NCBI GenBank assembly: GCA_036939975.1
Contig: JALLPB010001887.1
Coordinates: 1-12,101, forward strand
DNA from: Cyclostephanos tholiformis
Taxonomy: Eukaryota > Bacillariophyta > Thalassiosirophyceae > Thalassiosirales > Thalassiosiraceae
DNA: 12,101 nucleotides
Direction: 5' to 3'
This document shows positions 1-12,101 of this stretch, piece by piece. The notes beneath the pieces were generated by a model. The model saw nothing but the letters and a program-made list of their open reading frames with translations, was not told the DNA's origin and ran no database searches. A program made the translations under genes and the position numbers. The stretch's first letter is position 1. Every line of letters begins with the position of its first letter.

Positions 1-82
1 ATTCGAAACTGGGAATTTAAAATTCCCACTCCTCGCTGCTCTCTCTACTGGCCGCGTGACTGTACATAGTACATGTCTAACA
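1..82 (-). repeat. 3' LTR of element 1 (first 82 bp of 182)
   Basis: Read on the minus strand it starts TGTTAGAC directly after the polypurine tract. It is the same sequence as 5262-5343 with one substitution. The remaining 100 bp of this LTR, including the primer and U5 part, would be to the left of the window. It contains the 17-nt palindrome at 11-27. Confidence 0.93.
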
Positions 83-93
83 CACCCTTGCAG
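83..93 (-). other. Polypurine tract of element 1
   Basis: On the minus strand it reads CTGCAAGGGTG and directly abuts the TG of the 3' LTR. Element 2 has the identical 11 bases in the same place (10905-10915) although the surrounding DNA differs. This is the expected plus-strand priming site. It starts only 8 nt after the pol stop, so there is almost no 3' untranslated spacer. Confidence 0.85.
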
Positions 94-101
94 TAGAGAG
101 A

Positions 102-3100
102 CTACTGACGTAGGACACCATACGAATTTTTGCATTGACTTTTTGGAGTCAAAATATTTACCTTGTTGCGAAACTCTAAGAGCTGACTGAAAGGTGTGAG
201 GAATACTGGTCGCATGTTGCGATGATGTGCTGCCGGATGATGCTTCGTCCAGTAGTCGGCATAGTTTGTAGGGCCGGGGCGCCAATAAAATCTGAATTGA
301 TTTTGCGTGCTGCGATCTCGCAGCCAATGAAAGCGCATATCCATGGCTTTGGTACGTTTTGGTTGTACTCGTTTGTTGATGATGCCTTCGGCGGTTGAAT
401 TATCGATTTGAACGGGGGTGGCTGGCTGTTTGTGTCCCATTTCGTCTAAAATGATGCGTTCCTCAACTGCCTTGCGTGCGTTAATATACATGGCACCCAG
501 TTCAGCTTCGGCTGCTGATGACATGACGCCCTTAATTATTTCAGCGACGTTGTGAATTGCGCCGTTGTTTGGGGGGAAAGGTACGTTTTCGGAGAGGAAA
601 TGATGGCCGCCGGCTCGACTACGAGCTTCCTCCTCGTTGAGGTAGCTCGCATCGCTATGGACTGCAAGGACCATGTCGCTTTTGCGATATGTGAGAACTG
701 CAGGTTCCTGCGTGGCGAGATAGTCCATTATTTGTTGGCCTCGTTGCGTGGTATTGACGGTCGGTTTCGATTGTTTTGCTGCAATTGCACTGAGGGGGGT
801 GAGGATCGTTCCATCGACACCGCGTCCGTACCATAAAAATTTACCAGTGATTTTCTGAATTTTCTTTTTCTCTTCATCGTCGACAGGTTCTGATTGATCG
901 TACTCTGCGAATTGTTGCTTGGCTCCATATTTTGGTTGCACGTGCGGATACGGTGATTGCTGGCGTTTTGTGGGAATAACATTGTCGAATTGTCGGAGCG
1001 CCTTGTCGAGGTAAGGTTTCATCGAGAGGTGCACCTTTTTGTTCGTGTAATCCCAATCGAGCTCAATTTTTACTAATTCCTTTCCGTCGGGGTCAACTTT
1101 TACATCGTAATATTTCTTGAGAGTGTCGGATAGATGGTCCAGGTCGTTTTTGGTGAAGTATTTAATGCCGAAGTCGTCAACGATAAGAATGAATTGAGTA
1201 GGACGTGTCTTGTGCTTCCAAAGGGCTGGGACAAGGGGGCTTTTGTAGTATCCGTCCTTGTTGAGACGTTCTTCGAGTTCATCGTGGCTGTTCGAGCCTG
1301 ATTGAGGTAAGCCATACATGCCACGTACCACTTTGAAGTATACCCAGCCGTCTTTTGTTTTAACATTCAGTTTGTATTCGTTTATGATTTCGTCGGGAAT
1401 GTCTGTCAATTTTACCCTGCCGTATTCGGGTCGCTTGAGGGGCGTCATCAGGTAAAAATTGGAGAGGTCAGCAGTGGCAAATTTGGCTCCCTCGGTCGAA
1501 ATGACGCTGTTCAAGAAGATTTTGATCAGCAGTAGATCGGCAGTTGGGGTACCCACATCGTCGGGATAGTGGATGAGGTTGCCGCCGAGAGTGGCTCTGA
1601 TGCGGTGGGGTTCATCTTTCTCTGTGCGAACGGACGCGACGAACTTAATGTAAGTGACGTCCTTGAGTCTGTCTTGTGGGATTTCGTGTTTGTGGACGAA
1701 AAATATAGTGTTCGTGCCATCAATACGTCCGCCGACACCTTGTGCTAATCTGCCGAATTCATTTGCTCCTGCTTTGGTCCAAATTTCTTTGTGTTTGGGG
1801 TCTCGCAGCAATTGACGGTATTCAAGTAGTTTGCCGGTGTCAAAATCGAGGACTGGCTTAGCAGATTCTCGACGTCGTTGGGCCACACGTTCGGCAATGG
1901 ATGACAATGGTGTGCAGCGCCTTCGTTTGACTCTATCGGCGATTGATTCAGATGGAATGATTGTTGGTTGCTTTAGAATGGGTTTTGGGGACATAACAAT
2001 CAATCGGGGTGGCGTCGGCTTCGTATCGGGGTGTATTTCCTCGTTGCCTTCGATATTGAATTGCACCCTTGGAGGTGCGTCGATTTGCATTGTTGGAGGT
2101 GGTGCAGTATGCACCCTTGGAGATGCCTCAACGTGCACCCTTGGAGTATGGGCGTGGAGTGGTATCGTATTCCCAGGGCGAAGCGCATTGGTGAGTCCTT
2201 GGATTGCGTCCATTTGTGTGTTGCTGCCAAGTTTGCTGCCGCCTTTGATTGCATTGGAGAGATCTTGGATTGCTTTGATGACCAGATCCTCGGTAGACAA
2301 AGTTGGTTGTGTGATGTGCTTGTGCTTGAAATAGACTGTGTCCGAGATTTGTTTTGCTCGTGTGGCCTTGACGAAAATGAAGTGGCAGCGGTAGTGATCT
2401 GGGGACGTCGTTAGGTACCACCCGTCGCTGGAATGCTCACCCCATGATTTGCGTCTGTCCGGTTTGATATGAAATTGTACAGCACAGCCCATGGGAGCAA
2501 GTGGCATGCGGTTGTAGTCGAAGGTGCCGTGGTGGTACGCATATGCAGAGATGTTGGGTGCCACGTGCGATTGCCTGAGGAGATTCAAGGTAAGTACGAT
2601 TTGTGGTACCAACTCGTGCCACTGATGGATTGGGAAGTCGTCGGATACGCCGGCCAAGACAGAAATGAAATGGCCCTTGTAAGTTTGAATCGCCCGCTCC
2701 GCAATGTTTCTCCTGTGCATGTCCGCCGGTGTTTTCTCAACGCGACAACCATTTATTCGAATTGCTTCTAAAAATTCGTCAGGTGCTTCGTTGTCGAGAA
2801 CATGCCAATTAGGGCAGATGACTCCGGTGGCCTTCCACCGTGCATAGATTCGTTTGTAGGCTTCGGTAAGTTCCCTGGCTGTTCTTGATTTTATCGGTTC
2901 GGCGTCTATGTAGTTCCCGTCTAGTTCCACTGCCACCATTGTGTATTTGTGGCCGCCGGCGGAAGTGATTGGGAACCGACCCGTTTGATCGGTGTACATG
3001 GCCTTTTTGGTCGTGTCGAACACCCGTAAGTAAACGTCCTTGAATTTTATACCTGGCGTTGGTTTGGGGTGAGTTTCCGCCTCGAGCATTGCATCTTCAT

Positions 3101-4013
3101 CGACAACCTTTGTTGATCTGACGCCTTGTCGTGTCTGCCTCATGTGTCCCTTTTGCGTTTCGTTGGACTCGGGAAAGAATTTGTGGACGTTGTCGACTGT
3201 CATTCCTGGGAAGGTGACGAGGTTGTTGTGGCAAATGGCTTCGAGTAGTGTTGCCTTCGTCGGGAATCCGAGTGCGGCGTGCCCAAAGCGGATTACCTCT
3301 TTAGTCGATGGTAATTTGTAGATGTTCAACGCCCTCTCGTCCGCGAGTGGTACAGTCCACAATCCTCCGTTGTCCCTCCAACCGTGGAGTAACGGCGGTT
3401 TGTTGGTGACAAGTTTAAAACTGTCGTTGTCGTGGACAGTGGCTCCCTGTAGGTAAGGATGAAAAACTGTCGTGTATCCTTGATCCGCCAATTGTCGAAC
3501 GCTCATGAGTGCTTGCGTTGACATTTCAGGGATGACGATCGCTTCGCGAGCTTCGTCGTTGAGTTGCGTGAGCGGGAGGCGTGCTCTGTGGGTGGCTTTC
3601 ATTATGTGGCCGTTGGCGGTGGAGACCGATTTTGATGATGGACCGGTGAGTTCAAGTCCATCTGATGATTGGATAAAGTTGCTCGTCGCGCCAGAATCTA
3701 ACATCGCTTCCTTGATGGCTCTGACTTCGTTGATGGCGTCATCAATGAATTGATCCTCGGTTCGGCGAACTTCGGTCAGTGCTTTATGTTTTGCGAGCCG
3801 CCGCGTCCATTTTGATGAGGGATGGGGGCTGGTGGTTGACTCAACAATCAATCGGGGAAGGCGAATGCTTGGATCACTTGTGATTGGGTCAGGTGTAGTG
3901 GGTGGAGAGATGGGCCCAGCAGTGGCAACCAGGTAAGAGAAACCCTTTGTTATTTTATGGATCTCTATCTTACCCGGCTGCCATTGCTCGGTAGGCTCAT
4001 CCTCCGGACACCG
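102..4013 (-). CDS. pol: Pol polyprotein of element 1: protease, integrase, reverse transcriptase, RNase H
   Basis: The frame is open from the codon after the gag UGA (4011-4013) to TAG at 102-104, about 1,300 residues. No in-frame ATG occurs before the one two residues upstream of the protease motif, so an independent start is unlikely and readthrough from gag is the best reading. Counting residues from a TTG at 3851: aspartic protease DSGA at 52; integrase catalytic D288, D353 and E385; a linker of 8-residue PRV repeats (569-598) and two SIA[DE]RV basic blocks (636-660); RT with D795 and VDD at 891-893; RNase H with D1067, E1115/E1117 and D1150. All these catalytic residues are present. The cysteines of the usual HHCC zinc-binding segment are not seen near residues 189-246. 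It probably encodes a functional enzyme set for reverse transcription and integration in the virus-like particle. Confidence 0.93.
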   Translation of the reverse strand, partial: RCPEDEPTEQWQPGKIEIHKITKGFSYLVATAGPISPPTTPDPITSDPSIRLPRLIVESTTSPHPSSKWTRRLAKHKALTEVRRTEDQFIDDAINEVRAIKEAMLDSGATSNFIQSSDGLELTGPSSKSVSTANGHIMKATHRARLPLTQLNDEAREAIVIPEMSTQALMSVRQLADQGYTTVFHPYLQGATVHDNDSFKLVTNKPPLLHGWRDNGGLWTVPLADERALNIYKLPSTKEVIRFGHAALGFPTKATLLEAICHNNLVTFPGMTVDNVHKFFPESNETQKGHMRQTRQGVRSTKVVDEDAMLEAETHPKPTPGIKFKDVYLRVFDTTKKAMYTDQTGRFPITSAGGHKYTMVAVELDGNYIDAEPIKSRTARELTEAYKRIYARWKATGVICPNWHVLDNEAPDEFLEAIRINGCRVEKTPADMHRRNIAERAIQTYKGHFISVLAGVSDDFPIHQWHELVPQIVLTLNLLRQSHVAPNISAYAYHHGTFDYNRMPLAPMGCAVQFHIKPDRRKSWGEHSSDGWYLTTSPDHYRCHFIFVKATRAKQISDTVYFKHKHITQPTLSTEDLVIKAIQDLSNAIKGGSKLGSNTQMDAIQGLTNALRPGNTIPLHAHTPRVHVEASPRVHTAPPPTMQIDAPPRVQFNIEGNEEIHPDTKPTPPRLIVMSPKPILKQPTIIPSESIADRVKRRRCTPLSSIAERVAQRRRESAKPVLDFDTGKLLEYRQLLRDPKHKEIWTKAGANEFGRLAQGVGGRIDGTNTIFFVHKHEIPQDRLKDVTYIKFVASVRTEKDEPHRIRATLGGNLIHYPDDVGTPTADLLLIKIFLNSVISTEGAKFATADLSNFYLMTPLKRPEYGRVKLTDIPDEIINEYKLNVKTKDGWVYFKVVRGMYGLPQSGSNSHDELEERLNKDGYYKSPLVPALWKHKTRPTQFILIVDDFGIKYFTKNDLDHLSDTLKKYYDVKVDPDGKELVKIELDWDYTNKKVHLSMKPYLDKALRQFDNVIPTKRQQSPYPHVQPKYGAKQQFAEYDQSEPVDDEEKKKIQKITGKFLWYGRGVDGTILTPLSAIAAKQSKPTVNTTQRGQQIMDYLATQEPAVLTYRKSDMVLAVHSDASYLNEEEARSRAGGHHFLSENVPFPPNNGAIHNVAEIIKGVMSSAAEAELGAMYINARKAVEERIILDEMGHKQPATPVQIDNSTAEGIINKRVQPKRTKAMDMRFHWLRDRSTQNQFRFYWRPGPTNYADYWTKHHPAAHHRNMRPVFLTPFSQLLEFRNKVNILTPKSQCKNSYGVLRQ
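2062..2146 (-). repeat. 24-nt periodic repeats in the integrase-RT linker of element 1
   Basis: The 13-mer CTCCAAGGGTGCA (minus strand) occurs at 2062-2074, 2110-2122 and 2134-2146. Spacings are 48 and 24, so the unit is 24 nt or 8 residues (T/S/P-PRV-H/Q). The unit between the first two has diverged to PPTMQIDA. The core CAAGGGTG equals the core of the polypurine tract. Confidence 0.85.
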
Positions 4014-4016
4014 TCA
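4014..4016 (-). promoter_or_regulatory. Gag stop UGA, candidate readthrough site into pol
   Basis: The minus strand reads GCT TGA CGG TGT. Gag and pol share one frame with no other stop between them. UGA followed by CGG is a known leaky context, for example in furoviruses and tobraviruses. After the stop the peptide RC, then ten codons in all, then WQPGK is shared with element 2. Confidence 0.7.
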
Positions 4017-5126
4017 AGCGATAGTCTTGGTGGACTTCCAATTCTCAGGCCTGAGGGCCTTGTTGACGTCCAGTTCCCAGCACTTGTCGTGTTTGGCGTG
4101 CTTCTTGCTGCAGTGGGGGCATTCCGTACGCGGTGGGCGAGGTGCCTTGGGTGTGTTGGCGGCGGGAGGCATTGCAGGTACGTGATGAGACGCGAGTAGC
4201 TTCTCGAACATCGTCATCATGGTCTTCATTTGTTCAGCATTTTGCGCTTGGAGTACGTTCGCCACCTCAGCGATGACCATGGCTTGAGCCTCGGCGTCTG
4301 AGATTTTTTCTTCCGTCGCTTTGTTCGCAATGCCCTTTCCGACGGCTCCGGCGGTCGATCTGTTTCGTTTGATCATCTTGGTGAACTCGATTTGAATGTA
4401 GACGCGGAACTTGGGAAAGGACTTGTCTGCCGGAAGTTTTGCATGCCATTTGCGCATTGCGGCGTCGAATTGACCAGAGGTTTGGTAAGTTGAAATGGCA
4501 TACGAGAGGCGCAACTCGGGTTGCTTTGGGATGTTGTGACGTTCCAACTGACGTTCATATTTGTCTGCCCGCGCAAACATTGTCACAGGTGCTTCAACTC
4601 CGTCCCACGGCTCCAACATCTTGGTGTTGAGGTCCGTGATTTCGAGGTCGTCGAGGTCTCCACCGGCATCGCGAAGTAGTTCTAGGAGTTCCAGTGGCTC
4701 TACGGCTTGGTATCCAATATCTTCATTGTGCTTCTCGGAGATCCATTCTTCGTCGACCGCCTTTACAATGGCCTGGCGAGCCCATGCTTCGCAAGCCATG
4801 TAAGTTTCAAATTCTATGATTTCTGCTTTGTGCTCCGCGACTTCTCTCTCACGAAGTTTCTTGTCGTCACTTGCGGTTGCTGGGTATGCTCCAGGGTGCA
4901 TTGGTCAAACGAGTTTGGTGCCCATTGATAGAACGACATATCTGCTGTCTGGGATGACAATGCCGATGTGTCCTAGTTTGCCTCCCCCGTTTGAGGTCAA
5001 GATGGTTACTAGCGCAGCGGTCAGTTGCGTCGTGAGCTTGTTGATGTCGTCCTCGGTTGGTTGCCCGTCGATCTTGGTTATTTCAAATGCTTGGAGAGCA
5101 TTGAACACGTCCTGAAGGATGCCCAT
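4014..5126 (-). CDS. gag: Gag (nucleocapsid/capsid) of element 1, interrupted by one in-frame TGA
   Basis: The start ATG at 5126 begins MGIL and lines up with the MGKR start of element 2 gag: both have exactly 24 residues from Met through a shared TKI-GQPT block. About 370 codons follow, close to the 380 of element 2. A single TGA at 4905-4907 splits it into a 73-residue head and a 295-residue body that could restart at ATG 4901, two codons after the stop. The body carries the capsid-like helical region, a glutamine- and methionine-rich likely coiled coil, and a C-terminal knuckle CPHC-SKKH-C followed by Trp (C-X2-C-X3-H-X5-C). Gag should form the particle and bind element RNA. Because the rest of the element is young, the TGA is most likely a recent mutation. 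Leaky reading or restart is the alternative. Confidence 0.85.
4905..4907 (-). other. Premature TGA within element 1 gag
   Basis: The minus strand reads GTT TGA CCA ATG. The reading frame is identical on both sides (5126 and 4901 differ by a multiple of 3), and the protein before and after aligns with the uninterrupted gag of element 2 (…KLV stop PMHPGAYPA against …FITPPHPGIYPA). It is therefore a substitution inside a coding codon, not a gene boundary. Confidence 0.85.
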
Positions 5127-5149: not shown

Positions 5150-5161
5150 ATTAATTACGAC
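5150..5161 (-). promoter_or_regulatory. Primer-binding segment of element 1, complementary to its own LTR
   Basis: Starting at the first base after the LTR end (…TTTAGCA), the minus strand reads GTCGTAATTAAT. This is the exact reverse complement of minus-strand LTR bases 5211 to 5200. The match is 12 of 12 and breaks at the next base. I recognise no match to the usual initiator-Met tRNA primer site here. Confidence 0.7.
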
Positions 5162-5343
5162 TGCTAAACAGCGGCAAAAGGATCAGTATGCATAGAAAGG
5201 TCGTAATTAATTAATGAGTTATTTCTGCAACTCTTCATTTTGAAAATTGCGAAAACTCAAAATTCGAAACTGGGAATTTAAAATTCCCACTCCTCGCTGC
5301 TCTCTCTACTGGCCGCATGACTGTACATAGTACATGTCTAACA
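5162..5343 (-). repeat. 5' LTR of element 1 (182 bp)
   Basis: On the minus strand it begins TGTTAGAC and ends GTTTAGCA, an imperfect 8-bp terminal inverted repeat of the usual TG…CA type. It holds a TGTAC-TAT-GTACA hairpin near its start (5322-5334), a 17-nt palindrome (5272-5288), the motif ACTCATTAAT (5219 to 5210), the 12-nt self-complementary primer (5211 to 5200) and a 38-nt U5-like tail. The tail shares CTTT, ATCCTTT and CTGTTTAGCA with element 2. Transcription should run leftward. Confidence 0.93.
5200..5211 (-). promoter_or_regulatory. Predicted self-primer and approximate transcript start of element 1
   Basis: ATTAATTACGAC pairs perfectly with the 12 nt after the LTR. By analogy with Tf1, whose first 11 mRNA bases pair with the segment after its 5' LTR, the transcript would start at or just before 5211. 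The ACTCATTA immediately upstream matches ACTCATAA in element 2. Confidence 0.55.
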
Positions 5344-5382
5344 ACCTTTGCACAACATCCTTTAGTTTGTCACTGTTTAGCA
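5344..5382 (+). repeat. Right-hand remnant of the 5' LTR of element 2
   Basis: It is 39 of 39 identical to 11072-11110, the end of the 3' LTR. It starts abruptly where the element 1 LTR ends, showing that element 1 landed here. Its first five bases, ACCTT, would be the right copy of the element 1 target duplication. Confidence 0.9.
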
Positions 5383-5394
5383 GTGATTACGTAT
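5383..5394 (+). promoter_or_regulatory. Primer-binding segment of element 2, complementary to its own LTR
   Basis: GTGATTACGTAT starts at the first base after the LTR terminus. It is the exact reverse complement of 11062-11073 in the 3' LTR (12 of 12, mismatch on either side). Position, length and first base G agree with element 1, but the sequence differs. Confidence 0.7.
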
Positions 5395-5439
5395 CAGATC
5401 TAATCAATGCGGAAGCTAATTCATTCAACTAGTTTAACA

Positions 5440-6582
5440 ATGGGCAAACGAGCGGAAACACGTGATGAACTTTGGAAGGAAACGGTCACGAAAATCCACG
5501 GACAACCGACGGACCAAGACATCACGACGCTCAAAAAAGAACTCATTGCAATCGCAGCCAGCATTCCAACAGGATTAGGCGAAGGAAACCATGGACACGC
5601 GGGACTAATCGTCGAAGCAACCAAATACCTCGCAATGGCCGGCCAAGCTTTCATCACACCACCCCACCCAGGCATCTACCCAGCAGGACTCGCAGCAGGC
5701 GCAGCAGCAGGAAGAACACGAGCCCGAGCGGAAGCGGTGCATAAAGAAGAACTTCTTGCCCAGTACGAAATCTTCAAAGGAGTCAAACAGGCATTGAAAG
5801 ACATCATCCAAGAAGCGGTTGAACACGACTACCTCCTCAAAATCGAAGATGATACTCTCGGTTTCTTAAACCAAACTCCCCGCCAAATGATCGACCACCT
5901 CAAAGCACGCGGAGGAGCATTGGACTTTGCCAACACAAAGACCCTTCTGGCCGAAAGAGACACGGAATGGGACATCAGTGAAAACCCACAGGTTTACTTC
6001 AACAGGGTAGAAAAGGCAGTCAAAGCACTCACCCGAGCTGGCATCACCTCCGACTTGAACGAACACAGGGACATGGCACTCTATTATCTCAAGTCATCTG
6101 GAGAATTCGATGCGGCGGTGCGCGAGTGGGAGAACAAAGCGGCAGCGGACAAAACGTGGGCGAACATTAAGACATTCATCGCAACGGAATACGCGCGCGA
6201 GAACAAACAAAACAAACTCACCGCGAAACAGTTCAAAGCCAATCTCATTGAAGAACAGGCTGAGGTGACGGAGGAACTCATCGCAACCCTGACAGAGAAC
6301 CACACTCGTCAGATGGAGAGCCTGATCAAAAGCACAACGGAAGCGATGAAAGAGATGATGCAGCTCATCAAATCAAACGGCAACACTCCGACGAACCCCA
6401 CCAACGCTAAGGACGAGGAAAAGAAGAAGAAACGAGACGAGAAACGCAAGAAATACAACGAGGCACCCATCTGCACTCACTGTGGCAAGAAGCATCCTTC
6501 GAAAAAGGAGGAAGACTGCTGGGAACTGGAGAAGAACAAAGCCTCTCGCCCGGCCAACTGGAAATCGACGAAGAGCACCTGA
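5440..6582 (+). CDS. gag: Gag of element 2, intact
   Basis: The 380-residue start at 5440 (AACAATGGGC) is preferred over an in-frame ATG at 5407. From 5440 the distance to the shared TKIHGQPT block is 24 residues, exactly as in element 1, and the context is better. The N-terminal part is followed by an alanine/glycine-rich linker, a capsid-like helical region resembling copia Gag, a lysine-rich helical stretch likely to form a coiled coil, and a charged KKK/DEKRKK segment. Near residue 345 there is a knuckle CTHC-GKKH-C followed by Trp (C-X2-C-X3-H-X7-C), which should bind nucleic acid. Unlike pol of this copy it has no lesion. It ends in TGA at 6580-6582 with pol continuing in the same frame. 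Confidence 0.9.
   Translation: MGKRAETRDELWKETVTKIHGQPTDQDITTLKKELIAIAASIPTGLGEGNHGHAGLIVEATKYLAMAGQAFITPPHPGIYPAGLAAGAAAGRTRARAEAVHKEELLAQYEIFKGVKQALKDIIQEAVEHDYLLKIEDDTLGFLNQTPRQMIDHLKARGGALDFANTKTLLAERDTEWDISENPQVYFNRVEKAVKALTRAGITSDLNEHRDMALYYLKSSGEFDAAVREWENKAAADKTWANIKTFIATEYARENKQNKLTAKQFKANLIEEQAEVTEELIATLTENHTRQMESLIKSTTEAMKEMMQLIKSNGNTPTNPTNAKDEEKKKKRDEKRKKYNEAPICTHCGKKHPSKKEEDCWELEKNKASRPANWKSTKST
6580..6582 (+). promoter_or_regulatory. Gag stop UGA of element 2, candidate readthrough site
   Basis: The sequence reads ACC TGA AGG TGC. The next in-frame stop is not until 6829. The codons after TGA encode RC, then WQPGK at 6616-6630, as in element 1. A short hairpin CTTC-AGTA-GAAG lies about 13 nt downstream. 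The AGG after the stop differs from the CGG of element 1. Confidence 0.6.
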
Positions 6583-7161
6583 AGGTGCGCGGGGTCTTCA
6601 GTAGAAGCAGAGACGTGGCAGCCAGGAAAAGTGATATCGAATAAACTAAACACGACCATCACTTACCCGGCTGTCACGAACTATTGGACCCCACTTATTG
6701 ACACAGACAACGATGAACCAACGACAAAAGAGGAACACATCAACACAGTACAATCAACCAAGCAGCAACAGAAACCAAAGTCCAACAAGTGGAAGAGAAG
6801 GATCGCACGACGACAAGAAATGAGACGATGACAAGACGAGGAAAGCATAATCATCGACTCAGGAGCAACGTCACACTTCGTCACCAAACGACTCAACTTA
6901 CCCGCCATATGACCATCAGACCTCACAGTCTATCTCCCTGATGATTCGACTTTGAGAGCAACCAGCAAGACTCAACTCCCATTCGAACAATTGTCAGAAG
7001 AAGCAAGACGAGCGAACATACTCCCAGGCCTCACCAAATCACTTATCAGTGTGAACAAAATGGCAGAGAACGGATACACAACCATCTTCAGACCAGGGGA
7101 CGAAGGCGTAACATTCCACAAAAAGGGCACACTCACCATCACAACGAGCAAACCTCCTGTG

Positions 7162-7174
7162 CTCCAAGGGTGCA
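7162..7174 (+). repeat. Isolated copy of the 13-mer CTCCAAGGGTGCA
   Basis: The base sequence is the same as the three linker repeats of element 1, but it lies between the protease and integrase and in a different codon phase (CTC CAA GGG TGC instead of CCA AGG GTG). Element 1 lacks the motif at the corresponding place. Confidence 0.7.
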
Positions 7175-7251
7175 AGAGGAGAGGAGAGAACCTATGGACA
7201 GTGTCAGTACCGAAAACAAAGTCAAGACGAGAGGAAGCGGCCAACGTTTAA

Positions 7252-8381
7252 AACTTACTGTCAATTGCACAAACGATAAAATACCTCCATGCGGCAGCGG
7301 GATACCCGACTGAAAACACATGGATAAAGGCAATCAAAGCCGGAAACTACATCTCATGGCCAGGCCTCACGGCCACAGCGGTGAGGAAGCATTTCCCCGA
7401 ATCCGACGAGACCAAGAAAGGACACATGAAGCGGCAACGACAGGGCGTCAGATCGACCAAAACACTCCAAACAATCAATGAAGACGAGGAGGATGCGATG
7501 GAAGACCACGACTCACCAATGACATCCAAACCAAAGAAGATGAAAGACGTATACGTGAAGGTCCACAGTGCCAGTGACACAATGTACACCGACCAGCCAG
7601 GACGATTCCCAGCCACCTCGAGCAGCGGAAACCAATACATAATGGTGTTAGTAGAAGTCGATGGAAATTACATAGACGCAGAGTCAATGAAGAACAGATC
7701 AGCAGGATCAATGGTGAAGGCTTACCTAGCACTTTGGGCACGTATCACGGCAACAGGAACCATCCGACCCACGACACACCTCATGGACAACGAAGCACCA
7801 ACAGAGCTCAAGGCTGAAATCAAAAAGAATTGCACGCTCCAACTCGTCCCCCCGGACAATCACAGGCGAAACCTGGCAGAGAGAGCGATACAGACATTCA
7901 AATGCCCCTTCAAGTCAGTGTTGGCGGGGGTAGACGACAATTTCCCAATGCGGCTGTGGGATAAACTCCTACCACAAACAGTACTCACATTGAACCTACT
8001 TAGACAATCAAATGTGGCCCCAACAGTCTCGGCATACCAATATGTTAATGGAGTATTCGACTACAACAAAATGCCATTGGCCCCACTCGGTTGCGCAGTC
8101 CAACTGTATGAAAGCAACGCACGACGAGGAACATGGGCGGAACATGCAATTGACGGATGGTACCTCGGCACATTGACGGAACATTACCGATGCCACAGAT
8201 TATACGTGAAGCAAACAAGAAGTGAGAGGATATTGGACACAGTGTTTTTCAAACATAAACACATCACTCAACCTACCGTGATGCCAACGGACACAATTGT
8301 TAAGGCACTCGACGACCTAATGCACGCTTTAAAGGGAAGGAGAAACATTAAAGGAGCAACGGAAATCAAAGCACTGGAAAA
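7252..8381 (+). pseudogene. Integrase region of element 2 pol
   Basis: This is the longest undamaged domain of the broken pol, in frame with gag. It begins with a degenerate pre-integrase segment (LHAAAGYP, WPGLT, FPESDETKKGHM) that shows no CxxC pair. The catalytic residues are all present: Asp 7591-7593 (MYTDQPG), Asp 7786-7788 (LMDNEAP) and Glu 7879-7881 (NLAERAIQ). The two Asp are 64 residues apart, as in element 1, and the second Asp to Glu gap is 30 residues (31 in element 1), shorter than the usual 35 of retroviral integrases. The reading frame is lost at the A run near 8380. Confidence 0.85.
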
Positions 8382-8588
8382 ATCGATGAATTACTCAACA
8401 ACATACCCAAGCAATTATTGCCAGAGGTACAACAGCCTAGACAGACTCGAGTGTCATTTGACGCAACAACGGCACCACCAAAGGAAAGCGTCACCCCGAC
8501 AGCACGACAGGCGGCGACACCACGTCAAAATCAACGACCTCTCTCACAACAACAATCATCGACAAACCAATCCAACCCAACACCCCAA

Positions 8589-8635
8589 CTCCAAGGGTGT
8601 GCAGCAACTCCAACATACCAAATCCAAGGGTGCGC
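8589..8635 (+). repeat. Two PRV/CCAAGGGTG repeats in the element 2 linker
   Basis: CTCCAAGGGTGTG at 8589-8601 and TCCAAGGGTGCGC at 8623-8635 are 33 nt apart. In the frame leading into RT they encode TPRV and NPRV. The first differs from the polypurine tract plus LTR start (CTGCAAGGGTGTG) by one base. Confidence 0.75.
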
Positions 8636-9222
8636 AGCAAAGTCGGGAAGGCGCCATTAACGACACAACAACAGAAGTTAAGAAGCACATTGCGAGAAAG
8701 AGCGGAGAGCAGAGCAAGAATACCAAATCGAACTCACATGCAACTCAGGCAACAAGAGCAACGTGAACTTACCCAACTCATCCGCGACGACGACACCGGC
8801 GAATACCTAAACTACAGACAGCTCATGCGCAGTCCAAAACACAGAATAATCTGGAATAGATCATCAGCCAACGAATTTGGCCGACTTGCTCAAGGACTCA
8901 AAGACGGCCGAGTGACTGGAACAAACACAATCTTCTTCATTCCCAAAGACCAAGTGCCAAAGGACAGACTCAAAGATGTAACGTACGGAAGCTTTAGTTG
9001 TGACATGAAGCCGAATAAGAAAGAAACACACAGAACCAGACTTACCGCAGGAGGTGACAAGATCAATTATCCAGAGGACGTTGGAACCCCCACGGCGGAC
9101 ATGACGTTAGTCAAGACCTTTTCAACAGTGTCATTTCAACGAAGAAAGCAAAGTGCATCATGGCAGACATCAAAGACTTCTACCTCAACACTCCAATGAA
9201 GAGATATGAATACATGCGTCTC

Positions 9223-9609
9223 AAGATGATTAAATACGCCCGTATGGAGGGAGTATTCTCTCCCGCCATTTGGAGCAAGAAACGTGAATAAAATATAGAG
9301 AAACGAATATGACGCCGAAGAAAGGATTCTATCTCTCGTATGTAGATGATACGGGGATGTTCCTCNCTCTCGTATGTAGACGATACGGGGATGTTCCTCG
9401 CCTGACACGTGCCTGACACGCAACCGTGGGTTTTCATGTGAAGACGAAACAGAACCACGGATAATGACATGACGACGCTCTCACAATCGACCATTTCGAC
9501 TGTAATCTATTACTTAATCTTGACTGAATAGCCGCGCCCTCCCACGAGTTACCACGGCGGCCACGGTCATTGATCTTATACCTCAATGCAGGCATATCCT
9601 TTTAAAGAT
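9223..9609. mobile_element. 377-bp insertion in the RT of element 2, flanked by AAGAT
   Basis: RT coding is continuous if 9228-9604 is removed: CGT CTC AAGAT joins to AAGAT AACC, giving RLK-ITNIPEE, which matches RVKLTDIPDE in element 1. AAGAT occurs at 9223-9227 and 9605-9609, a 5-bp duplication. The insert has no terminal inverted repeat that I trust, no TG…CA ends, and no long open frame. It contains a 33-bp repeat around a single N and an 11-bp tandem repeat (9400-9421). The hairpin-prone GGAGGGAGTATTCTCTCC lies near its left end. It separates the two RT catalytic blocks (Asp 9166-9168 and VDD 9839-9847). The element type is unknown. Confidence 0.75.
9333..9399. repeat. 33-bp direct repeat separated by one N
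   Basis: Copies at 9333-9365 and 9367-9399 differ at one base (TAGATGATAC against TAGACGATAC) and are separated only by the N at 9366. The pattern fits two contig ends that overlap but were not merged, so the duplication may not be real. Confidence 0.85.
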
Positions 9610-10900
9610 AACCAACATACCAGAGGAGGTCATAGAATATTATAACTTTAGAAGCATCATCACGGAAGATGGATATGTATACTGCAAAATACGGAAGGGC
9701 ATGTATGGCCTACCGCAAGCAGGGATTATTGCGCAAGAGCTACTCAAAGAGCGACTCGCAATAAAGGGATACCACCAAAGCAAAATCATCCCAGGACTGT
9801 GGACACACGAAACCAGGAACATATGTTTCACGTTAGTGGTCGACGACTTCGCAATAAAATATGTCAACAAGGAGGATGCAGATCACTTACTCAACGCCCT
9901 GCAGAAAGACTACACAGTATCGATGGACTGGGAAGCGACAAATTACATCGGCCTAACAATTGAATGGGACTACCACAACAGGAAGGTGCACATCCACATG
10001 CCAGGCTACCTCGCAAAAGCACTTCAGCGGTTCAAACATCCAACACCGACGAAGCAACAGAACTCACCACACCCGCACATCGCACCCCAATACGGCGCCA
10101 AGGTCCAATTTGCACCAGATGACAATGAATCCCCCCCCCTCGACAAAGAGGACATGAAATACATTCAGGCGGTGGCGGGGACATTGCTATATTATGGGCG
10201 AGCCGTTGACAACACAATACTCACCGCGCTCAGTGCAATAGCGACCAAGCAGGCCAAACCAACGCAGAAAACAATGGAAGTGATAAAACAACTGCTAGAC
10301 TATTGGGCAACGCAGGAAGATGCAATCATCACATACCGAGCAAGCAAAATGATCTTACAGGTTCACTCTGACGCAGGATATTGCAACGAAAAGAACTCAC
10401 GCAGCAGAGCCGGGGGACATTTTTTCCTATCGAATGGCGAAGACAATTCCCCCAACAACGGCGCCATACTCACGATCGCAACAATAATTAAAGCAGTCAT
10501 GTCATCGGCAGCCGAGGCAGAATTAGGAGCATTATATTTAAACGGGAAAGAGGCAACATATCTATGCCAGATACTCACCAAAATGGGACACCCACAACCA
10601 TGCACTCCAACCCAAACTGACAACTCGACGGCGGCATGAGTCGTCAACAGCATTATCCAACCAAAGCAAATGAAGGCCATGGACATGAGATTCCACTGGC
10701 TCCGCGACCAAGAAGCCCAAGGACAACTCAGAATTTATTGGCGACCGGGGAAGACGAACCTTGCGGACTACTTCACAAAACATCACTCACCGGCACACCA
10801 TGTTAATATCAGGTCAGAATTCCTAACCAGAGTGAAAGATCTCGCAGAAGCGAGGCGTCAGAGAAAGGAGCAACGCCAGACCAAACCAGCAAAAAGCTGA
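9605..10900 (+). pseudogene. RT C-terminal half and RNase H of element 2 pol
   Basis: The frame is open from the right end of the insertion to TGA 10637-10639 and, past that stop, to TGA 10898-10900. It contains the RT GMYGLPQAG block, the catalytic VVDDFAIKY (VDD 9839-9847), then RNase H motifs VHSDAGYCNE, SSAAEAELGALY and TDNSTAA. After the stop come KAMDMRFHWLRD, IYWRPGKTNLADY and FTKHHSPAHH, which mirror the C-terminal end of element 1 Pol. The TGA replaces a codon aligned with Glu or Gly in element 1. Apart from that stop, the motifs are well kept. Confidence 0.88.
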
Positions 10901-10904
10901 ATAG

Positions 10905-10915
10905 CTGCAAGGGTG
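10905..10915 (+). other. Polypurine tract of element 2
   Basis: CTGCAAGGGTG directly precedes the TGCTAAAC start of the 3' LTR and is identical to the tract of element 1. It lies four bases after the pol stop. Confidence 0.85.
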
Positions 10916-11110
10916 TGCTAAACTTTCCAATACATACCTACGTATGGAAGTCACATAGGGACAGCTAAGCGAGCTTTTGGCGAATGGAAAATTTAAAATC
11001 TCCATGTAGAAGGTTTGCGCCACAGGTTTCCAAGATGAAACCAAAGATAGATTACTCATAAATACGTAATCACCTTTGCACAACATCCTTTAGTTTGTCA
11101 CTGTTTAGCA
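10916..11110 (+). repeat. 3' LTR of element 2 (195 bp)
   Basis: It begins TGCTAAAC and ends GTTTAGCA, a perfect 8-bp terminal inverted repeat. It holds a CATAC-CTAC-GTATG hairpin near its start (10933-10946), an imperfect 22-nt palindrome (10984-11005, 18 of 22 symmetric), ACTCATAAAT (11054-11063), the 12-nt primer (11062-11073) and a 37-nt U5-like tail. The start is set by the polypurine tract and the end by identity with 5344-5382. Confidence 0.9.
11062..11073 (+). promoter_or_regulatory. Predicted self-primer and approximate transcript start of element 2
   Basis: ATACGTAATCAC is the reverse complement of 5383-5394. In the intact element the corresponding bases of the 5' LTR would be the start of the transcript. 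They should lie left of element 1, outside the window. ACTCATAA is immediately upstream, as in element 1. Confidence 0.55.
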
Positions 11111-12101
11111 GATAAGTCTTCCTGCTCTTCTGAGTCCTCTAATGATGATTTGGTTGTCTTGTCTGCTGTGAACAACACCTTTCCTGTTGAAACGGCTCGT
11201 TGTTGTCAGCAATCCAGTTGACAGAATGAGGGAGCCACTCTTGGTGGTCCACGCCAAAGCAAAAGGTTGAGGCAAGGAAGGAATCTGCACCCATTGTACC
11301 CACTCTCTGGACTAACATTTGGTTCTTCCTATCTTGTAAAGAAGTCACGCACTCAGGCCAAGCACAGTTCTTGTGTACCCTTGGCACAAAGCAACCTTCT
11401 CCTTTGGCAATACCTACCCACAGTAATGCATCCAAATGTGAACTTGGGTCCCTTTACTTGGCAAAAGTTACTGTGAACACTATCTCATCATTCTGGCGGA
11501 CAAATGTGACACAGGTGTTATTGAAGACCTTCATGTTCAAATGATACCACCTCTCATACTTGCAGCAAAGACCGCGGCTACTAAGGATGATAATCCCACC
11601 TGGTGGCAAGCGATGAATGGTCCTTATGCCAAAGAATTCTAGAAAGCCGCTCAGATTGAGATTGAGATCCTCAAGAAAATTGTTCCCTGTGCAGATGATA
11701 TTACCAACATCTTGCCTTCCACATGGGCATTCAAGGTCAAGCAATACCCAGATGGTATTATCAAGAAGTTCAAGGGATGTTTCTGTGCTAGTGGAGACAA
11801 GCAAATTCAAGGTGTTGACTTCTTTGAAACCAACAGCCCAGTGGTTCAATGGACCACTATTCATTTGATGCTTGTACTTGAATGAATCTTTGGCCTCTGC
11901 TCAAAACAAGGTGATATCACTTGTGTCTTTCTCCATGCATTACTTGGGAAAGATGAGGCAGTTGACATTGAGATGCCCCAGGGTTTCAAGCAGTATTACA
12001 AGAATGGCAAACTCAAGGTCCTGAAGCTTAACCAAACATTATATGCTCTGCACCAATCTCCATGTGCCTTTTGTTTATATCTTGTTACTGAAAAACTAGA
12101 G
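11111..12101 (+). pseudogene. pol: Element 3: degraded copia pol (linker and reverse transcriptase), cut by element 2
   Basis: From 11111 one frame reads an acidic, serine-rich linker with a TGA at 11219-11221, then GPRQSKRLRQGRNLHPL, ending at TGA 11474-11476. Around 11470-11520 the frame shifts, and a conventional copia RT follows to the window end. Recognisable blocks are PTWWQAMNGPYAKEF, LPSTWAFKVKQYPDG, GVDFFETNSPVVQWTT, KQGDITCVFLHA, EMPQGFKQ and LKLNQTLYALHQSP. Stops at 11640-11642 (TAG, where Trp is usual) and 11883-11885 (TGA) break it. The lineage differs clearly from elements 1 and 2. Element 2 begins exactly at its left edge, so gag, protease and integrase of element 3 are expected to the left of the window. 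Confidence 0.88.

Follow-up and report, generated by a model that had tools for sequence, protein, structure and literature searches.

Complementarity between the primer-binding site and the element's own LTR points to self-priming in Ty1/copia elements of a diatom

The window, i.e. the whole 12.1-kb stretch of Cyclostephanos tholiformis DNA that was analysed (12,101 nucleotides), contains two copia-type elements in opposite orientations and part of a third (Table 1). The insertion point of element 1 is 5343/5344, equivalent to 11071/11072 in the 3' LTR of element 2. As the insertion interrupts the primer arm in the 5' LTR of element 2, that LTR has no intact arm. In the RT region of element 2, 33 nt around the single N were present as a near-duplicate (9333-9399), which is probably an assembly join.

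Table 1. Features of the two copia-type elements and of the partial third element in the window
Feature	Position	Strand	Remarks
Element 1, copia-type		minus	Nested in 5' LTR of element 2; 3' LTR incomplete at contig start
3' LTR start, element 1	1..82	minus	Rest lost at contig end
Polypurine-like tract, element 1, CAAGGGTG	83..90	minus	Precedes 3' LTR; read from sequence
pol, element 1	102..3851	minus	Open frame of 1249 aa, mechanical TTG start; order protease, integrase, RT, RNase H partly by eye
gag frame, element 1	4014..5126	minus	In-frame TGA 4905-4907; terminal TGA 4014-4016; pol next, same frame
Primer-binding site (PBS), element 1, GTCGTAATTAAT	5150..5161	minus	12/12 with own LTR
5' LTR, element 1	5162..5343	minus	182 nt, TGTTAG...TTTAGCA; aligned to LTRs of C495, C1543, C1492
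Primer arm, element 1, ATTAATTACGAC	5200..5211	minus	Final 12 of 16 nt from A of CAT at 5215
CAT of conserved initiator-like motif, element 1	5214..5216	minus	CTCATTA; A = 5215, primer 3' end 16 nt on
Element 2, copia-type, broken	5344-5382 to 3' LTR 10916-11110	plus	
5' LTR right end, element 2	5344..5382	plus	LTR split by element 1 within primer arm
PBS, element 2, GTGATTACGTAT	5383..5394	plus	
gag, element 2	5407..6582	plus	391 aa; zinc-knuckle-like C-terminus by eye; terminal TGA
Broken pol, element 2	6583..10900	plus	Several stops and frameshifts; one N at 9366
Polypurine-like tract, element 2, CAAGGGTG	10908..10915	plus	Read from sequence
3' LTR, element 2	10916..11110	plus	195 nt, TGCTAA...TTTAGCA; start set by analogy with element 1
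Primer arm, element 2, ATACGTAATCAC	11062..11073	plus	A of CAT = 11058, primer 3' end 16 nt on
Third copia element, partial	11712-12071		RVT_2 match; 3' of element 2

A profile search of the element 1 pol gave Asp_protease_2 at amino acids 46-99 (E 0.0026, below its cut-off). RVT_2 was found in element 2 below the cut-off in one search (E 6e-6) and over it in another (34.9 bits); after this domain (9671-10036) fewer than 300 codons remain to the end of pol at 10900. Integrase and RNase H were located by eye only, in the translation. The integrase-like motifs recognised by eye are N-terminal to RT, which gives the order protease-integrase-RT-RNase H of Ty1/copia elements (Pseudoviridae). Membership of the Tf1/sushi clade was rejected, since the Ty3/gypsy order has the integrase after RNase H and the integrase-like motifs seen by eye precede RT. 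The LTR termini were TG...CA or TG...TA, and two solo LTRs of relatives were flanked by 5-bp target duplications. Among the best 120 of 688 protein relatives, the named organisms were diatoms (Cyclotella cf. meneghiniana, Thalassiosira oceanica and Skeletonema marinoi), and the two closest relatives reached 90% and 85%; the named relatives suggest a diatom host, probably one of the Thalassiosirales. One relative (P0116, 57% identity) bears the name Reverse transcriptase Ty1/copia-type; the CCRYP_ entries among the relatives presumably come from C. cryptica. A sequence search of the PDB gave no match. The search for pol protein relatives gave 2 pattern matches in viral contigs and 7 in contigs of bacterial/archaeal genomes, none of which was confirmed by tblastn.

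The 12 nt directly after the 5' LTR of element 1 (5161..5150, GTCGTAATTAAT) are the exact reverse complement of LTR bases 5211..5200, with 38 nt left to the LTR end. Likewise, nucleotides 5383-5394 of element 2 (GTGATTACGTAT) correspond exactly to the reverse complement of 11062-11073, which lies 37 nt from the end of the LTR. This arm was read in the 3' LTR, since the insertion of element 1 interrupts the same 12-mer of the 5' LTR. Both matches had been recorded in a preliminary description of the window and were reproduced exactly. Their start at the first base after TTTAGCA, which had also been recorded, agrees with the LTR border of the TTTAGYA type, which is independently established by two solo LTRs of relatives and their 5-bp target duplications (L027, TTCCT; L074, GCCAC). 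At 5370-5386 (TCACTGTTTAGCAGTGA) a small 6-bp hairpin (TCACTG/CAGTGA), which is absent from some families, is formed by the end of the LTR and the start of the PBS. This hairpin would compete with primer binding and is perhaps a switch or an integrase-end constraint.

Relatives were sought in the same genome (24.95-Mb assembly, 1,566 contigs), where the element 1 pol had at least 60 matches and the LTR-end pattern RTCACTGTTTAGYA occurred at 46 sites, versus 2 for the reversed control. An LTR-end pattern gave one match in viral contigs (L127), in a contig with no blastn similarity to the window, which was taken as chance. A sample of 41 junctions was assembled from element 1, C495 and element 2, 20 pattern sites, C111 and C236, 3 tandem LTR junctions, and 13 of 16 upstream pieces. 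It covers 39 contigs and 40 distinct rows (C21a = C21b); C28, C1055, C1507 and C684 showed no leader similarity and were picked for a PBS-like start. For C1556 and C1496 the LTR border was shifted by one base to give an LTR with a CA end, a shift borne out for C1556 by its 3' LTR. C1169 has two copies of U5 around an N gap, of which the nearer was used. At L011 (C1399), L021 (C1110) and L024 (C1330) an LTR lies directly 5' of the apparent internal start of another copy, and these are perhaps tandem elements with one common LTR.

The 12 nt after the LTR paired with the own LTR at 12/12 positions in 23 junctions, at 11/12 in 12, at 10/12 in five and at 8/12 in one, and thus at 10/12 or better in 40 of 41. 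Base-shuffled LTR tails (41 x 100 = 4,100) gave a best 12-mer match of 12 in no case, of 11 in 2 and of 10 in 36, and control 12-mers taken from bases 21-32 after the LTR had 5-9 matches (mode 7, in 22 of 41). The imperfect junctions, with one mismatch in 12, two in five and only 8/12 in C53, which has a 2-nt LTR deletion, were counted against self-priming. Pairing at position 13 was found in 18 of 41 junctions, while that at position 14 (7 of 41) was at chance level. Outside the sample, C1492 matched its 5' LTR at 10/12 and its 3' LTR at 11/12.

When the 3' LTR of element 2 was left out, 19 of the 45 remaining pattern sites reached 10/12 and 26 were below this value. Similarity of the internal leader was present in 18 of the 45, and 15 of these 18 reached 10/12; the three that did not were element 2 (split LTR), C53 (deletion) and C80 (one match, probably no 5' junction). 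Among the 16 upstream pieces, which were chosen by pol homology alone, the 13 with a junction all paired at 10/12 or better. No LTR was recognised in C660 and C357, and in C553 the LTR ends at the contig edge before the primer; as judged by eye, 9 contiguous nt of the 3' LTR of C553 are paired by its PBS. Two pieces of another copia lineage, C161, share no repeat and thus provide no LTR pair.

The covariation claimed earlier for the two window elements was found throughout the sample, in which the pairing is kept with compensating changes over 28 different PBS 12-mers. Examples of arm/PBS pairs are ATTTAGTAATCAC / GTGATTACTAAAT (C1447), ATTCAGTAATCAC / GTGATTACTGAAT (C831), ATTTACTAATCAC / GTGATTAGTAAAT (C1089), ATTCAGTTAGAAC / GTTCTAACTGAAT (C1399), ATGATAAATAAC / GTTATTTATCAT (C419), AATCTAGGAGGTA / TACCTCCTAGATT (C1521), TTTTATGCACCAA / TTGGTGCATAAAA (C1542) and CTTTAGCAATGTC / GACATTGCTAAAG (C1407). 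Watson-Crick pairs occurred at positions 1-12 in 35-41 of the 41 junctions, and each position showed two to four types of pair. Ten of the 12 positions exceeded all 1,000 shuffles, the exceptions being positions 5 and 11, which hardly vary. The mean match was 11.4 on the own LTR versus 8.4 on the LTRs of elements with another PBS (1,580 trials). Foreign LTRs nevertheless gave 12/12 in 24 and 11/12 in 135 of these trials, which was counted against self-priming; these matches occurred because many rows are close kin, members of a single family around GTGATTA.

FastTree was used to build an RT tree from query-anchored pieces of 20 elements (rooted at the midpoint, support values not shown), in which sister or near-sister branches carried different primer/PBS pairs. 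For C1399, C1110 and C1330 the junction sits in a tandem LTR downstream of the pol that entered the tree. Compensated changes were found between close relatives, namely C831/C1447 (87% RT identity), C1399/C1110 (82%) and C419/C1260 (84%), and C1169, with only 44% RT identity to element 1, had the same architecture. In seven of the 13 upstream-piece junctions the LTR end was also seen in the 3' LTR (25-30 of 30 nt alike, followed by unrelated sequence). C419, C1496, C1407, C18, C1395 and C56 had no 3' LTR to confirm the border, which was placed by the pairing and partly by the CA/TA end. The adjacency in these six is thus partly placed by the pairing itself, and this was counted against self-priming, as was the choice of the four rows with a PBS-like start. 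Within the examined part of this group of elements in one genome, the pairing is real, strong and general.

The distance from the A of a CAT motif in the LTR to the primer 3' end was 16 nt in 31 junctions, 17 nt in eight, 15 nt in C1395 and 12 nt in C53, which carries the deletion, when only CATs 12-18 nt away were counted. With the nearest CAT within 24 nt and before the border shifts, it was 16 nt in 28, 17 nt in 10, 15 nt in one and 12 nt in one, and one junction had no CAT; the pairing counts were the same. The motif was YCAT in 38 of 41 and GCAT in three, and CTCATWA was present in 29. The loop between the arm and the LTR end measured 27-68 nt. Thus, although the nearly equal distances to the LTR end given in the preliminary description hold for elements 1 and 2 (38 and 37 nt), this distance is not fixed over the families, and the near-constant is the 16-17 nt from the conserved CAT. 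The oomycete initiator (INR) has been given as YCAYTYY. The CAT is probably the transcription start site, and the primer would then be the 16-17 nt at the 5' end of the RNA. In a transcript beginning with the A of CAT, a few nucleotides at the start of the primer would usually be unpaired with the PBS, a point counted against self-priming.

These observations suggest that the diatom Ty1/copia elements very probably prime minus-strand DNA with their own RNA, the 5' end of which would fold back, be cut and serve as primer. The LTR promoter would start the RNA at or beside the A of the conserved (Y)CAT, and the final 12-13 nt of the first 16-17 nt would fold onto the 12-13 nt right after the 5' LTR. 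The RNA would be cut at the end of the duplex; in Tf1 the cut is ascribed to the RNase H of the element. The new 3' OH would be extended through U5/R to give minus-strand strong-stop DNA, and plus-strand synthesis would copy the primer into the PBS of the next generation. This last step is what the standard LTR cycle implies. In every cycle the LTR would thus supply the sequence of the new PBS, which would explain why both arms change together. The self-priming reading of the preliminary description is therefore supported, since relatives keep the pairing and no tRNA in the partial set described below competes. On a broader reading, towards which we incline somewhat less than half-way, a large diatom copia radiation is wholly self-primed, with the primer cut 16-17 nt from the RNA 5' end independently of the loop. 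RT identity among the pairs compared went down to 44%.

The nearly fixed spacing could also be produced by a short promoter-proximal RNA of 16-17 nt from the LTR that acts in trans, instead of the cut 5' end of the same mRNA. The primer 3' end lies 16-17 nt from the CAT in 39 of 41 junctions while the loop varies from 27 to 68 nt, as such an RNA would allow, but the precedent of Tf1 is one of intramolecular folding and cleavage, and we consider a primer in trans unlikely. A second alternative is that the helix, as a conserved RNA structure, serves another function (packaging, dimerisation, or control of translation or termination) and that the primer is something else. Stems between U5 and leader exist in retroviruses, and in minimum free energy folds of the RNA from the A of CAT to PBS base 20 the arms of 38 of 41 junctions formed a stem of 8 or more primer:PBS pairs; the exceptions C28, C53 and C236 had none. 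Against a purely structural helix, its 3' arm starts immediately behind the last LTR base, the position required of a PBS, and this border was independently fixed by target duplications for the TTTAGYA type and by the 3' LTR for seven further junctions. The pairing is moreover 12-13 nt long, and no tRNA-like PBS was seen in its place with the partial tRNA set. This alternative is improbable as well.

Priming by a tRNA or half-tRNA, with the LTR match being secondary, is most unlikely. Most plant copia groups use tRNA-Met or half-tRNAs (PMC6317226), and five junctions (C1330, C1321, C1542, C18 and C553) start with TTGG, in which TGG, one base in, could pair with the CCA end of a tRNA. However, the best match of the PBS anywhere in 30 tRNA loci was 7-9/12, which was equalled by 15-100 of 100 shuffles per element, and the match to the tRNA 3' end (3-7 of 12) was no better than with shuffles. 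This partial set included tRNAs for Ala, Arg, Asn, Thr, Ile, Lys, Leu, Met, Cys, Asp, Ser, Gly, Tyr, Glu, Pro and Gln, and none of those named was for Phe, Trp, Val or His. The 28 PBS types would also require many tRNAs, each of which also matched the element's own LTR. A tRNA or half-tRNA primer was therefore rejected, as the PBS complementarity to the partial set did not exceed that of shuffled sequence. The five TTGG sites (L024, L118, L117, L122 and L114, respectively) match their own LTR over 9-13 contiguous nt, and their families have longer loops (49-68 nt in the four measured); it is possible that they are a relic or an intermediate of tRNA priming. Chance or an assembly artefact, suggested by the split 5' LTR of element 2 and the reading of its arm from the 3' LTR, is practically negligible and was rejected on the comparison of own-LTR pairing with shuffled tails and on the occurrence of 28 PBS types on 39 contigs.

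Self-priming is experimentally known for Tf1 and Ty3/gypsy relatives, and the pairing of Tf1 comprises 11 nt, reportedly from the RNA 5' end onwards. The diatom pairing differs in its length of 12-13 nt, in an arm that starts a few nucleotides downstream of the likely start A, and in a primer sequence that is not the same between families. The PBS of Tf1 adjoins the 5' LTR and matches no tRNA; its complement is an LTR segment regarded as the RNA 5' end (PMC5445492, PMC5006619). The diatom elements resemble Tf1/sushi (Ty3/gypsy) in the adjacency of the PBS to the 5' LTR, the complementarity to a segment of the own LTR and the lack of a tRNA match; unlike Tf1/sushi, they are copia elements with integrase motifs before RT.

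Within Ty1/copia, self-priming has been predicted for the plant TAR lineage (with Houba and Osr-1) from a complementarity of at least 10 bp that starts 0-5 bp after the LTR (PMC6317226). The view in the preliminary description that self-priming was not described for Ty1/copia thus has to be given up; it is not new to this group, and the diatom case is a new variant of a known mechanism. The diatom elements are like TAR in being Ty1/copia elements for which self-priming is predicted from complementarity, but they occur in a diatom host and probably belong to another lineage; their named relatives are diatom proteins. No analysis of covariation or spacing was seen in the TAR account (PMC6317226). 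The fungal copia element GalEa also has no tRNA PBS; in contrast to the diatom elements, in which a complementary LTR segment is present, it was described with a conserved palindromic hairpin site and with no complementary U5 segment found (PMC5445492). The CoDi elements are likewise diatom Ty1/copia elements, with LTRs of 153-844 bp and TG/CA ends in 23 of 26 families (Maumus 2009, PMC2806351); a term search of the main text found no discussion of primer or PBS. Self-priming in diatom or other stramenopile elements did not appear in the titles or abstract starts among the matches listed for the openly licensed PMC literature.

Natural compensatory changes among 28 PBS types in this diverse group of diatom copia elements argue strongly, on genetic grounds, for the LTR as the source of the primer. 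It has been argued that tRNA priming is a late invention and suggested that self-priming is ancestral to LTR elements (PMC3601003), and the diatom elements bear on this question. Should a fixed cut 16-17 nt from the RNA 5' end apply to the whole radiation, primers would drift freely and families would gain private primers because the PBS would be rewritten from the LTR in each cycle. The elements would then also be independent of host tRNAs and out of reach of defence by tRNA fragments. The sites that LTRdigest searches for are of the tRNA type. A pipeline for Cyclotella cryptica retains LTR elements only if LTRdigest detects a PBS in them (PMC7466962), and filters of this kind may discard self-primed elements. 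If self-priming also holds in other old copia lineages, it may be ancestral to LTR elements (PMC3601003).

In both window elements gag and pol lie in one frame and are separated by a single TGA (4014-4016, minus, in element 1; 6580-6582, plus, in element 2). This in-frame layout with a single stop suggests that Gag-Pol may be made by stop-codon readthrough. The gag/pol stop was surveyed in 14 loci and element 2, and the same layout was found in seven relatives (L012, L013, L014, L017, L022, L027 and L031), which are the listed ones with an open frame before the stop in the sequence slice used. L010 had the same TGA after a broken gag, and the remaining loci surveyed were cut or broken at the gag/pol junction. 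The stop contexts were TGA CGG, TGA AGG, TGA TGG, TGA CAT and TGA CAA.
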